From the NCBI GenBank assembly GCA_017501105.1, contig JAFVXO010000046.1, forward strand, positions 1-32,574: 32,574 nucleotides of DNA, in the 5' to 3' direction. Within the stretch, counting starts at the first letter, position 1. Every line of letters starts with the position of its first letter. This stretch comes from Clostridia bacterium. GTDB lineage: Bacteria > Bacillota > Clostridia > RGIG7378. The notes under the pieces are model-generated. The model saw only the letters and a program-made list of their open reading frames with translations, searched no databases and was not told the DNA's origin. Below are positions 5,365-10,699 of this stretch, piece by piece. Both the position numbers and the translations under genes were made by a program.

Positions 5365-6334
5365 TTTGTTCACCATGATACAGGACAGATTGAGCACAGC
5401 AAGTAATATTGCTGTGCTTTGTCATGCGTATAGCGACGGAGATGCAATTGGCTCCGCCCTGGCCATATATTCGGCCATTAAGCGGGTTTATTCGCAAACG
5501 CTGCAATCTGTAACATGCATCATGGAAGAACCTGTGCCTGCAAAATACGACTTCCTGCCGGGTGCTGAGAATATGCTCCAGTGGCCTGAGGGCAAGGGAA
5601 GATACGACCTTGTGGTCACGGTGGATACAGCATCTGCGGAACTTCTGGGACACAGGGCGGAACTGCTTGAGGGAGCTTTTGTAATTTCCCTTGATCACCA
5701 CAGTTCACATACACCTTATTCGGATATCGATGTAAGAGAGGCTGATTACGGCGCCTGTGGAGAGTTAGTATACGAATTTATTTGCCACATCGCAGGAAAG
5801 CCCACCGCAGACGAGGCGCTATGTCTGTACACTGCCATCGCATCCGACACAGGTGGTCTTTCTCAGAAGAATGCAACGCCTAACTCCATGATGGTCTCAG
5901 CCATGCTGGCACAATACGAATCTGTAAAAGTAGATGAGGTTGCGTTCAGACTCTTCAAGGCCTCCACATATGCCAGAAATAAGGTTATGGGCTACTGCCT
6001 GTCCAATGAAGAGCGCTATGCTGACGGCAAGATATGCTTCTCTCATATAACCGGTGAGATTATGCAGGAAACCGGCTGTACTGACGCAGACACCGAGGGG
6101 ATTGTCAACGCATTGTTTGCAACTGAAGGTTGCGAGATTGCCATCTTGGCCAGAGAGACCACCGACGGCATTACAAAGTGCAGCCTGCGCAGTCATCATG
6201 CTAATGTTGCAGATGTTGCAGCTCATTTTGGCGGCGGCGGACACATTAACGCTGCAGGATGTCGTTTGGATACTGACCCAAAGACGGCAGCTGAAACCCT
6301 GGCACAATACATTTTGCAAAATGGACTCATTTAA
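5342..6334 (+). CDS. nrnA: DHH-family nanoRNase / pAp phosphatase NrnA
   Basis: NrnA degrades very short RNAs (and in many species pGpA and linear pApA) and dephosphorylates 3'-phosphoadenosine 5'-phosphate. The 330-residue protein has the metal-binding motif I 'SDGDAIGS' (Asp32 and Asp34, with His28 before it), Asp95 in 'VTVDTAS', the DHH triad at 118-120 and the DHHA1 substrate loop 'GGGGHINAAG' at 297-306. All expected catalytic residues are present. The start at 5342 follows a purine-rich stretch inside rbfA; a later in-frame ATG near 5375 is possible but less likely. It sits between rbfA and truB as in other Firmicutes, linking RNA turnover with ribosome biogenesis. PgpH, which makes pApA from c-di-AMP, is encoded at 13054. 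Confidence 0.94.
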   Translation: MERKSKTDLFTMIQDRLSTASNIAVLCHAYSDGDAIGSALAIYSAIKRVYSQTLQSVTCIMEEPVPAKYDFLPGAENMLQWPEGKGRYDLVVTVDTASAELLGHRAELLEGAFVISLDHHSSHTPYSDIDVREADYGACGELVYEFICHIAGKPTADEALCLYTAIASDTGGLSQKNATPNSMMVSAMLAQYESVKVDEVAFRLFKASTYARNKVMGYCLSNEERYADGKICFSHITGEIMQETGCTDADTEGIVNALFATEGCEIAILARETTDGITKCSLRSHHANVADVAAHFGGGGHINAAGCRLDTDPKTAAETLAQYILQNGLI

Positions 6335-7202
6335 CGGATATTTGTATATGCTTAAGCCTGCGGATATGACCTCCTTTGACTTGGTCAATTATGTTCGCAG
6401 ACGACTTTCCACCAAAAAGGTAGGACACACAGGCACCCTGGACCCTAACGCCATGGGTGTTATGGTGCTGTGCCTTGGAAGGGGAACCAAGGCAATTCCG
6501 TACTTTGAGTACGACAGCAAGTCCTACAGGGCTGAGCTGTTGCTGGGTCTTGAAACCGATACATATGACACCTATGGCAATGAGATTTTAAGGCAACCAT
6601 GTCATGCATCGGATCAGGAAATTGTCGAGGCAATAGAGTCCTTCTGCGGAGAAATTGACCAGGTTCCGCCCATGTATTCTGCAATTAAGGTGGATGGAGT
6701 GCGAATGTACGATGCTGCCAGACGAGGAGAGACATTGGATTTGCCATCCCGTAAGGTCACCATACACAGCATATCTGTAGATAGTATTATCAGGGAGGAC
6801 AGTTTAGTTCGCGTACTGTTTGACGTAGCTGTTTCCAAGGGGACGTATATCAGATCTCTCTGTCATGATATTGGACAAAAACTGGGATGCCCTGGCTGTA
6901 TGTCATATTTGTATCGCACTTCCTGTGGCAACGTTACTGTAGACAAATGCATTTCAATCAGAAACTTTGAGTCGGCACTGGAGTCGGGAACTGTTGGAGA
7001 CCTAGTGATGCCTACAGATTCCATATTCGAGGCTCTTCCGGAAATCAGACCTACAGACAGGCAACTCAGCAAATTGTTGAACGGTGTCAAGATTAAGGTT
7101 GATATTCAGGATGGACTATATCGGGTGTACGGCGATGGGTTTATAGGGCCGGGAAGAGTAGCAGATGGTATGCTGCGCATTGAAAAGAGGTTTGATACGT
7201 GA
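6321..7202 (+). CDS. truB: tRNA pseudouridine(55) synthase TruB
   Basis: TruB converts U55 in the T loop of tRNAs to pseudouridine. The 293-residue protein begins with the family start 'FNGYLYMLKPADMTS'. The catalytic aspartate is Asp41 in 'GHTGTLDPNAMG'. Further TruB motifs are 'SYRAELLLGLETDTYD', 'PPMYSAIKVDGVRMYD' and 'KGTYIRSLCHDIG'. A short PUA-like tail ends the protein. I chose ATG 6321 because homology begins there; the open frame extends further upstream only inside nrnA. No good Shine-Dalgarno is visible, and the 14-base overlap with nrnA suggests translational coupling. Its stop overlaps the ribF start as GTGA. Confidence 0.96.
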   Translation: MDSFNGYLYMLKPADMTSFDLVNYVRRRLSTKKVGHTGTLDPNAMGVMVLCLGRGTKAIPYFEYDSKSYRAELLLGLETDTYDTYGNEILRQPCHASDQEIVEAIESFCGEIDQVPPMYSAIKVDGVRMYDAARRGETLDLPSRKVTIHSISVDSIIREDSLVRVLFDVAVSKGTYIRSLCHDIGQKLGCPGCMSYLYRTSCGNVTVDKCISIRNFESALESGTVGDLVMPTDSIFEALPEIRPTDRQLSKLLNGVKIKVDIQDGLYRVYGDGFIGPGRVADGMLRIEKRFDT

Positions 7203-7735
7203 TTATCCTGCAGGACAATACAATACCGAATGTGGCCCGCTGTATATGTATCGGGTGCTTTGATGGTATTCACAAGGGTCATCGGGCTATAATCCGCGCC
7301 GCTTGTCAGTATGCCAACAATAAGGGTATTAAATCTTTGGTTTATACTTTTTCGCCATTTAAGGATGTCCAGGTTTTGCTAAACGATAGTGAGAAGATCA
7401 GGCGAATTGAGGAACTGGGAGTGGACGAATACTATTTACAGGAGTTTACTCCTGAGTTTGCATCCACCATGCCCGTGGATTTTGTCCGGAAACTTAAGGA
7501 TAAATTTGGCGTCAAATGTATAGTTGTCGGGCCTGATTTTACATTTGGAAAGGGTGGAACCGCTGGAGTGGCAGAGTTGGATTCCATATGCGCGCAGATG
7601 GATGTGGAATGCATAATTGTCCCCCTTGTAACGCAGAATGGTAGAAAGGTCAGCAGCACCGCCATCCGGGAGGCGCTGGATCAGGGAGATATTTCTCTTG
7701 CAGAGGAAATGCTGGGAGGAATATATGTCGGATAG
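7199..7735 (+). CDS. ribF: RibF-like FMN adenylyltransferase (FAD synthetase domain only)
   Basis: RibF normally has two domains: an N-terminal FMN adenylyltransferase and a C-terminal riboflavin kinase, about 310 residues in total. This protein has 178 residues and only the first domain. The nucleotidyltransferase motif 'GCFDGIHKGHR' lies at 19-29, 'GPDFTFGKGG' (the usual flavin-site loop) near 115, and 'KVSSTAIREAL' near 150. The chain ends at 'MLGGIYVG', where a full-length protein would enter the kinase domain after 'LLGRPY'. No kinase remnant is visible downstream in any frame, because queH starts there with an 11-base overlap. The start is GTG, overlapping the truB stop by four bases, with AAAAGAGG ahead. 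FMN synthesis would need a separate riboflavin kinase or flavin uptake; that is inference. Confidence 0.88.
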   Translation: MIILQDNTIPNVARCICIGCFDGIHKGHRAIIRAACQYANNKGIKSLVYTFSPFKDVQVLLNDSEKIRRIEELGVDEYYLQEFTPEFASTMPVDFVRKLKDKFGVKCIVVGPDFTFGKGGTAGVAELDSICAQMDVECIIVPLVTQNGRKVSSTAIREALDQGDISLAEEMLGGIYVG

Positions 7736-8279: not shown

Positions 8280-8297
8280 TTATCAACTCAGTATAAA
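8271..8297 (+). promoter_or_regulatory. Weak promoter candidate ahead of the nucleotidyltransferase gene
   Basis: TTGCCG at 8271-8276 and TATAAA at 8292-8297 are separated by 15 bases, shorter than the optimum of 17. It is the best match I see in the 74-base gap after queH. Transcripts from here would still run through the hairpin at 8319-8353. Confidence 0.25.
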
Positions 8298-8318
8298 AAT
8301 GTCAAATGTACATAGAAT

Positions 8319-8353
8319 AGTAGTCCAACTAAACACAAAGGACTACTTTTTTT
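8319..8353 (+). terminator. Intrinsic-terminator-like hairpin touching the next start codon
   Basis: AGTAGTCC (8319-8326) pairs perfectly with GGACTACT (8340-8347) across a 13-base loop, followed by an unbroken run of T through 8353; the ATG of the next gene is 8354-8356. It reads as a Rho-independent terminator for the rimP-queH operon. The only purine-rich ribosome binding candidate for the next gene (AAAGGA, 8337-8342) is partly inside the 3' arm of the stem. The hairpin may therefore control that gene as well. Confidence 0.7.
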
Positions 8354-10699
8354 ATGAAGACAATTATCCTTGCAGGTGGGCAGGGCATGAGACTCAGACC
8401 TCTGACTTGCGACAGGCCTAAGCCAATGATGCGGATTTTGGACAAGCCTTTGCTGGAGTGGACTGTATTGGCTCTGGCAGAACAGGGCTTTGATGAGGTT
8501 ACAATTGCAGTAAGATATAAAGGAGATTCCATAGCTGAATATTTTGGCGATGGGTCATCTATGGGTATAAAAGTAAATATCTTTGACGAAGATTCAAATC
8601 TGGGCACTGCAGGCTGTGTTGCAGCTATTATGGACAAGTCCGACGATGACTGTCTTGTTCTCTGCGGTGATACTTTGACAGATATAAATTATCGACGTGT
8701 TGCTGAGTATATGAACACAAAATCAGCAGATTTAGTGATTGCAGTGACCAGAGCCCAGGACCCAACTCGGTTTGGATGCTGTACTCTTGACGAAAATAAT
8801 AAAATACTTGGATTTTCCGAGAAGCCCAGCTGGGGACTTGTGGAATCAAACATAGTTAATACAGGTATATACATGCTGTCAAATAAGGCGGTCAAGATGA
8901 TTCCACGAGACCAGTTTGTGGATTTCGGTATGAGCTATTTTCCAAAGGTTGTTGAAAAGGGGCTGTCCGTATATGGGTATCAATTCGAAAACTACTGGAT
9001 GGATATCGGGGAGCCGGCGGCATATATCAAGGGCTGCGCAGATGCAGCAGCTGGCAAGGTATATCTCAGCGGAAAGCATATGTCCGCCAGGCCCGGTCAG
9101 GGAGTCAATATTATTCAACCTGTGTTCATCGGACCTGATGTTACTTTTGGTCGGGGAATAGAGCTTGGGCCAAACGTATGCATATGCGGCAATGCGGAAA
9201 TTCAGGACGGATGTAAGATAAGAAATTCAGTAATCGACAGAGACGCAGCAATATTTGAGGGTACAACTGTTGATGGTGCGGCCATCTGCCAAAACGTTAA
9301 CATAGGCAAAAACTGTACAATTAACAAGGGCACAGTAATCGGCAGTAACTGCAATATAGGAGACGGATGCACACTGCGTGAGGGGATTAGCATATGGCCT
9401 TACCACAATGTGGAAAACGGCACAGTAGTGAGTGAAACAATATTCAGCGCAAAAGCAGTCTGTGATATTGACTGGAAATCAGGCGATATATTGGGCGATT
9501 ATTCCCCCATGACTCTTTCAGATATGGCAGTTCGAATTGGCCGCAGTTTAGGTGCGGTTGATGTGGATTTAACTAAGGAAAAGCCAATGGTTGCAGTTGG
9601 AACTGATGGCTCCGTATTGGCTGAGATGTTTGGGGAAGCTGTTTCAATTGGCCTACGCTCAACAGGAGTTAATGCAGTAAAGTTTTCCGATTCCATTATG
9701 CCTGCATTCAGATATTCAATGTCTGTTTTCCCTGCAAACATGGGGGTGTATTGCTATGCGTCCTCTGAGGACAGGGTCAGATTTGCCCTTCTTGGCCAGG
9801 ATGGAAAGCGAATGTCGCTGTGGAAAGTGCGTAAGGTGGACAGGGCATACAGACAAAATGAATTTTATGAAATTATCGTAGACCAGGCAGGCAAGGGAAA
9901 TTACTTTAAGGGTGCGGATTTCAAATATATGGATCAGCTAATGCACTCTATGTCGATTTCTGTTGGTTGTTCGATAATTGTATTTTGTAAGAACCCCAAC
10001 ATAGCAAGAAAGTGTGCCATGATTATAAAGGCATGTGGAATCAACAGCCTGCCAATTCAACTTGGTGAAGGGGAGGGAACACAGGCCGTCATAGAAAGAA
10101 TGCGATATCATCATGGTTCTGTTGGATTAGTGTTCAACGAAACCTGTGAGGATGTAACTATTGTGACTGAGAGTGGCAGAATAATCAGTCCTGACAGAGT
10201 CAGATTGCTGTACACAAAGGCCTTTTCTGATAAGTTGACAGGCCCCCTGCCAGTGTGTGAAAACAGCAGTCATATTTATGTGGGACTTACCTCTCTGGTA
10301 TACACATCCTGTGAACTTTGCGACCGAGAGGCCGCGTCGGGAGAGATGTTTGGCTATGACTGGATGTCAGACAGTTTGCTGTTGGCACTCAGATTGCTTA
10401 CGTTCATTAAGCAAGAGGGAATTTCTGCGGAAATATTGGACGATGATGTTGAAAAGACAGTCATCAAGGAAATTGAACACACCACCCAATCCAAGGCTAA
10501 TGCAATTAACAACATGAGGCTGTGGGGTGAGTTGGTGCCTGGCATAAAAGGCAGATTCCTAAGGCGCAGCGAGGGATGGATTCACATATGTGCCGACGAC
10601 TACAGGAATGTTATCAGAATTACGGCAGAAGCAATGAATGCAGAAACTGCGGAGGATATGATTACTGAGTGTATTGAGCATTTAGAGGGCAAAAAGTAA
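8354..10699 (+). CDS. Sugar-phosphate nucleotidyltransferase fused to degenerate phosphomannomutase-like domain
   Basis: The 781-residue protein has three parts. Residues 1-235 form a nucleotidyltransferase domain with the signature 'LAGGQGMRLRPLT' at the very start, 'RPKPM', and 'GDTLTDIN', typical of mannose-1-phosphate guanylyltransferase or glucose-1-phosphate thymidylyl/uridylyltransferase relatives. Residues 250-365 are hexapeptide repeats (left-handed beta helix). Residues 385-781 follow the layout of a phosphomannomutase/phosphoglucomutase, but its key loops are altered: 'CYASSED' (467-473) stands where the phosphoserine loop TASHNP should be, 'NETCEDV' (595-601) where the metal loop DGDADR should be, and 'CADDYRN' (746-752) where the phosphate loop RPSGTEP should be. 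I infer a non-catalytic, possibly regulatory domain. Enzymes fusing these families are known; the exact sugar nucleotide cannot be named. There is no clear free Shine-Dalgarno; see the hairpin at 8319-8353. Confidence 0.85.
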   Translation: MKTIILAGGQGMRLRPLTCDRPKPMMRILDKPLLEWTVLALAEQGFDEVTIAVRYKGDSIAEYFGDGSSMGIKVNIFDEDSNLGTAGCVAAIMDKSDDDCLVLCGDTLTDINYRRVAEYMNTKSADLVIAVTRAQDPTRFGCCTLDENNKILGFSEKPSWGLVESNIVNTGIYMLSNKAVKMIPRDQFVDFGMSYFPKVVEKGLSVYGYQFENYWMDIGEPAAYIKGCADAAAGKVYLSGKHMSARPGQGVNIIQPVFIGPDVTFGRGIELGPNVCICGNAEIQDGCKIRNSVIDRDAAIFEGTTVDGAAICQNVNIGKNCTINKGTVIGSNCNIGDGCTLREGISIWPYHNVENGTVVSETIFSAKAVCDIDWKSGDILGDYSPMTLSDMAVRIGRSLGAVDVDLTKEKPMVAVGTDGSVLAEMFGEAVSIGLRSTGVNAVKFSDSIMPAFRYSMSVFPANMGVYCYASSEDRVRFALLGQDGKRMSLWKVRKVDRAYRQNEFYEIIVDQAGKGNYFKGADFKYMDQLMHSMSISVGCSIIVFCKNPNIARKCAMIIKACGINSLPIQLGEGEGTQAVIERMRYHHGSVGLVFNETCEDVTIVTESGRIISPDRVRLLYTKAFSDKLTGPLPVCENSSHIYVGLTSLVYTSCELCDREAASGEMFGYDWMSDSLLLALRLLTFIKQEGISAEILDDDVEKTVIKEIEHTTQSKANAINNMRLWGELVPGIKGRFLRRSEGWIHICADDYRNVIRITAEAMNAETAEDMITECIEHLEGKK

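Follow-up and report, generated by a model that had tools for sequence, protein, structure and literature searches.

What does a phosphohexomutase-like domain contribute when it has lost its catalytic loops and yet shares a chain with an intact sugar nucleotidyltransferase (NTase)? This question is raised by a single gene on a contig of a Clostridia bacterium (JAFVXO010000046.1, assembly GCA_017501105.1), the 32,574 nucleotides of which are referred to here as the window. A sequence-only reading had described the gene as a complete NTase fused to a mutase part that had become a sensor or scaffold, in an odd genomic place. The open reading frame is open through all 781 codons, and its domains, loops and leader elements are listed in Table 1.

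Table 1. Coordinates of the fusion gene, its encoded domains and loops, and its leader elements in the window
Feature	Coordinates	Strand	Basis
Fusion gene: NTP_transferase, left-handed beta-helix and pseudo-alpha-phosphohexomutase, 781 aa	8354..10699	+	ORF read, Pfam, model
NTase domain, residues 2-230, catalytic motifs intact	8357..9043	+	Pfam NTP_transferase, E 7.7e-48
Left-handed beta-helix (hexapeptide repeats), residues about 254-355	9113..9418	+	Pfam; lower model confidence
Pseudo-mutase domain, residues 373-781, four-domain alpha-phosphohexomutase fold	9470..10696	+	Model, TM, hhalign
CYASSED (467-473), aligned with the phosphoserine loop; S470 in the catalytic Ser column, no His	9752..9772	+	Alignment, column counts
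NETCEDV (595-601), aligned with the metal loop DGDxDR; E599, at the third Asp position, is the one acidic residue of the trio	10136..10156	+	Alignment, column counts
Region about residues 660-673, sugar-binding loop GExSGH deleted	10331..10372	+	Alignment, column counts
CADDYRN (746-752), aligned with the phosphate loop RxSGTEP; same sequence in the sister species	10589..10609	+	Alignment, column counts
8-bp hairpin and T7 tract ending at the start codon	8319..8353	+	Folding, comparison with sister species
TATAAA, possible -10 element, conserved in sister species	8292..8297	+	Consensus resemblance only

The two halves of the fusion protein

All motif residues of the NTase half (GGxGxRLxPLT..PKP, D106, E156-K157, N169-T170 and D217) are present in the window protein, as had been read from the sequence, and these motifs, with EKP and NTG, place it in PF00483. 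Those residues of the catalytic motifs that at least 93% of the fused family conserve are likewise kept (G8, G9, G11, R13, P22-K23-P24, G84-T85-A86-G87, G105-D106, E156-K157-P158, N169-T170-G171, W215, D217 and G219). In the NCBIfam profile NF052502 for mannose-1-phosphate guanylyltransferase, the window protein scores 232.6 bits and other fusion proteins 230-283 bits, against a curated cut-off of 440, and a name specifying mannose-1-phosphate as the substrate is therefore not established. The closest solved sequence relatives of the fusion NTase are the CugP-type UDP-glucose and the GDP-mannose pyrophosphorylases. The motifs suggest that this half most likely makes an NDP-hexose, for which it would combine hexose-1-phosphate with an NTP, and glucose or mannose is most likely the sugar used.

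The beta-helix and the linker are of low confidence in the predicted structure. Pfam recognises PGM_PMM_I at residues 390-472 (E 1.1e-6), and the structure predicted for the whole C-terminal domain from a 68-sequence alignment has a mean pLDDT of 91.7 and forms a complete four-domain fold, matching the Thermococcus and Pyrococcus PGM/PMM (9du5/1wqa) at a TM of 0.86. Further structural matches include, by their PDB titles, a GlmM-CdaA complex and a Glc-1-P-bound herring PGM5. When the C-terminal family profile (68 domains) was aligned with the GlmM-like mutase of the same genome using hhalign, the alignment extended over 426 columns, nearly the full length (E 6.7e-24, probability 99.6%), and paired ASSE with TASHNP, NETCED with DGDADR and CADDYRN with RFSGTEP, in agreement with the loop positions that the sequence-only reading had assigned to CYASSED, NETCEDV and CADDYRN. 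Canonical mutase loops such as TASHNP or DGDADR elsewhere in the chain were ruled out by hhalign and a motif scan.

Column counts put S470 in the catalytic Ser column, so that the nucleophile residue is formally present, while S471 occupies the position of the phosphoserine-loop His and the Asn-Pro is also gone (Y-A-S-S-E versus T-x-S-H-N-P). The metal-binding Asp trio is replaced by N595, T597 and E599, the phosphate-loop Arg by C746, with the Ser and Thr of that loop also missing, and the sugar loop GExSGH, which the earlier reading had left out, is deleted. The asserted loss of the catalytic loops thus stands for the His, the Asp trio and the phosphate Arg, and has to be qualified for the Ser. 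In the predicted structure the fold is complete without a catalytic site: the four domains of a catalytic alpha-D-phosphohexomutase are there, and its phosphoserine, metal, sugar and phosphate loops are not. Phosphate transfer is unlikely on the residues present and mutase activity is probably absent from this domain, which most likely descends from an archaeal/GlmM-type phosphohexomutase. Intact NTase motifs next to a mutase fold devoid of catalytic loops indicate that its role is probably non-catalytic.

Distribution, loop loss and constraint across the fused family

A search of 60 relatives recovered full-length fusions in about one third of the sampled class-level genomes. A first scan of the GTDB genome collection with the window protein as single query returned no match; with the family alignment, 80 named loci were kept. 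These loci belong to Clostridia, Bacilli (Fictibacillus, Halalkalibacter and Alicyclobacillus), Actinomycetota, Cyanobacteria, Chloroflexi, Armatimonadota, Geobacterales, a Desulfovibrio bin, Bacteroidetes/Ignavibacteria, Campylobacterota, Spirochaetes and candidate phyla. The window protein belongs to this NTase - beta-helix - pseudo-mutase family by domain order, full-length alignment, degenerate loops and its placement in the C-terminal tree, where it and its counterpart in the sister species fall inside a clade made up mainly of Clostridia (98% SH-aLRT) and share a long stem of 2.7 changes per column; the tree of the NTase half alone leaves the position of the pair unresolved. It is a new, divergent member of a widespread architecture that appears to be uncharacterised in the literature searched, and no paper describing the dead mutase of the fused family was found in the open literature.

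An intact phosphoserine, metal or phosphate loop occurs in none of 87 aligned fusion C-terminal domains from about ten phyla. Loop loss that is recent or peculiar to the window protein was thereby ruled out, and since the same loop positions are degenerate across the whole family, the loss is not a matter of chance. The nucleophile column holds Ser in 31 of the 87 (window included) and the His is found at its column in three, the window not among them. The Asp trio is retained nowhere; six members have acidic residues at all three of its positions, and in 71 the third of these is Glu. The phosphate-loop Arg is kept in three domains, with Leu in its place in 52, followed by Pro (80/87) and Asp (64/87). 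A domain that still carries out phosphohexomutase or related phosphoryl transfer, as part of a bifunctional mutase-pyrophosphorylase, could draw on the Ser and on the acidic residues at the metal loop, and leaves a remote chance of residual chemistry through the Ser and the third-position Glu. This reading is very improbable, however, given the scarcity of the His, the lack of an Asp trio or an R-S-T phosphate loop in any member, the deleted sugar loop and the two mutases with canonical phosphoserine loops that are encoded elsewhere in the genome.

In the sugar-loop region many Actinomycetota, Chloroflexi and Cyanobacteria carry AGxxxGGFIFP, the loop is absent in Clostridia, and vestiges persist as GEQSGG in a deltaproteobacterial protein (L087) and as GEERGG in another member (L085). 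Taken together, these forms resemble successive stages in the decay of the sugar loop across the family, and scores against the TIGR03990 mutase profile run in the same direction, with 279 bits for L087, 230 for a cyanobacterium, 205 for a clostridial member and 59 for the window protein. The mutase domains of L087 and L085 are dead apart from these vestiges, which suggest that the loss took place in steps.

These data bear on a metabolite-sensing role, in which a sugar phosphate, bisphosphate or NDP-sugar bound in the old cleft would allosterically gate the NTase. The charged positions R453, K714 and E599 are conserved family-wide, herring PGM5 has been solved with Glc-1-P bound, and some phyla retain the sugar-loop vestige. 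The phosphate-loop Arg has, however, given way to Cys in the genus and to Leu in the majority of family members, and the window protein and its Clostridia relatives have a deletion in place of the sugar loop. With both missing, the ancestral pocket is less likely to bind sugar phosphates in this lineage than in other family members, and sensing is rather doubtful as the role of the domain. Of the earlier proposal that the domain has turned sensor or scaffold, the probable non-catalytic nature is retained, while sugar-phosphate gating through the ancestral site is weakened by the loss of the Arg, the Thr and the sugar loop.

The NTases of the two genus members are 58% identical and their pseudo-mutases 43%. 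Loops 1-3 are at 31-42% identity, at or below background, while domain IV reaches 56% and the segment around CADDYRN is identical at 13 of 15 positions, which is suggestive of constraint on this phosphate-loop stretch between the two species, although as the highest value in the domain it is not significant (shuffle p 0.08). Conservation of the altered loops among homologues is thus seen for CADDYRN in the sister species, with the degeneracy itself a property of all 87 proteins rather than of the window protein alone. A decaying relic, tolerated rather than used in this lineage, would be consistent with the long stem branch, the divergence of loops 1-3 even between two species and the weak Pfam recognition of the domain. 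Such decay is nevertheless improbable, in view of the full-length reading frame intact in both species, the identity maintained over the domain and above all in domain IV and the phosphate-loop segment, the confident fold prediction and the presence of the domain in every lineage aligned.

Genomic neighbourhood and leader of the fusion gene

The sister species, the only one available, has the same gene order truB-ribF-queH-fusion-yqfC-yqfD-phoH, which does not recur at any of 13 other loci of the class. The unusual genomic place pointed out from the sequence is a genus-level arrangement, and glucan-synthesis neighbours are frequent in other lineages. A GT4/GT5 glycosyltransferase is encoded near the fusion gene in at least 25 of 90 loci, in at least 20 of these on the same strand within 200 bp, and other recurring neighbours are GH57 glucan enzymes (at least 7), GalT (at least 6) and GH94 (at least 4), all counts being lower bounds due to short flanks and some contigs ending early. 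The gene upstream of the fusion in Fictibacillus (L067:3203-5998) codes for a 932-aa protein that joins a GH57 branching enzyme with a GT4 glycosyltransferase. The window's genome encodes a GlgC-like NTase and a starch-synthase-type GT5; GH57 is absent from it, as is the DUF4912 partner gene, which is rare in relatives. Phosphomannose isomerase (PF01238) had no match in this genome, in a search whose control matched just 2 of 14 genomes.

Spo0A is encoded in the window's genome. A sporulation function for the fusion gene was rejected, as the yqfC/yqfD neighbourhood is common only to the sister species and SpoIIP neighbours occur at just three other loci. The RibF homologue (7199-7735) comprises only the FAD synthetase domain (178 aa), the riboflavin kinase domain not being found, and its sister-species homologue matches it over the same 176 residues. 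The TruB reading frame (6054-7202) begins at a GTG inside nrnA and its TIGR00431 match starts at residue 94, so that the true truB start is probably further downstream.

The fusion gene is preceded by a leader hairpin, AGTAGTCC-13 nt-GGACTACT, the T7 tract of which runs into the ATG, and an SD-like AAAGGA (8337-8342) overlaps the hairpin. In the sister species the stem has the same sequence and the loop a different one, both genomes of the genus contain the pattern a single time, at the fusion gene, and the leaders fold more strongly than shuffled sequences (z -5.3 and -3.9); no Rfam family matches the leader. With two sequences for comparison, the hairpin may terminate the operon upstream, or may act on the fusion gene itself as an attenuator or as a leader that hides the ribosome site, and the combination of the conserved TATAAA with a terminator-like hairpin (8292-8353) makes an attenuator possible.

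Possible role of the pseudo-mutase and comparison with known systems

The reading that we favour, with a little more belief than doubt, is that the window protein is a member of a pan-bacterial group of NTase - beta-helix - pseudo-mutase fusions, in which the pseudo-mutase plays a structural or regulatory rather than a catalytic part in an NDP-hexose synthase. Having kept the four-domain fold and lost the phosphoryl-transfer site, the C-terminal domain may shape the assembly or activity of the NTase, or dock a partner enzyme such as the neighbouring glycosyltransferase of other lineages. Retention of the domain in all lineages aligned, despite the lost chemistry, argues for such a role, and the occurrence of the dead fusion in many phyla suggests an old, probably regulatory or structural part rather than a quirk of one genome. 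More tentatively, the pseudo-mutases may form an ancient, pan-bacterial class that occurs solely as in-chain regulators or scaffolds of NDP-sugar synthases tied to glucan synthesis, with a phosphate loop rebuilt to LPDxExP and, in this genus, again to CADDYRN, and with expression gated by the leader hairpin through termination or ribosome-site hiding. The names given to the fused proteins tend to be those of GDP-mannose enzymes, and some imply a phosphomannomutase activity as well. Going by the alignment, none of the 87 members should be credited with this second activity, and in several lineages the neighbouring genes suggest glucans built from glucose.

The pseudo-mutase has the same four-domain fold as the archaeal PGM/PMM and GlmM (TM 0.86 and 0.79, respectively), the active-site loops of which are absent in the window protein and the whole fused family. 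The window protein shares its domain order and full-length alignment with the putative cd05805-type (MPG1_transferase) fusions at some 80 loci in many phyla, and differs from them in its divergence (26-28% identity outside the genus), in being about ten residues short before the beta-helix and in its queH-yqfC context. The subfamily cd05805 was among those left out as 'specific for other sugars' in a previous study (PMC9426568), and Streptomyces SVEN_3972, a putative member of the fused family, showed no response to five effectors tested (PMC5247666).

The best solved match of the family NTase half is the cyanobacterial UDP-glucose pyrophosphorylase CugP (8x7s, tlr0611; E 1e-101), the solved 401-aa chain of which, however, corresponds to the NTase half only, without a mutase-like domain. 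CugP was annotated as a GDP-mannose enzyme and makes UDP-glucose (PMC7401256). Synechocystis Sll1558 was considered as a fusion and rejected, as it is CugP (PMC7401256) and its Thermosynechococcus relative tlr0611 is a single enzyme. The GDP-mannose pyrophosphorylases GMPPB/GMPPA and plant VTC1/KJC combine, like the window protein, an NTase with a left-handed beta-helix, and GMPPA, an inactive NTase paralogue, allosterically inhibits GMPPB (PMC11228364). The dead partner in that pair is a second NTase, whereas in the window protein it is a mutase in the same chain; should the dead mutase indeed control the enzyme, bacteria would possess an equivalent of GMPPA control that makes use of another fold.
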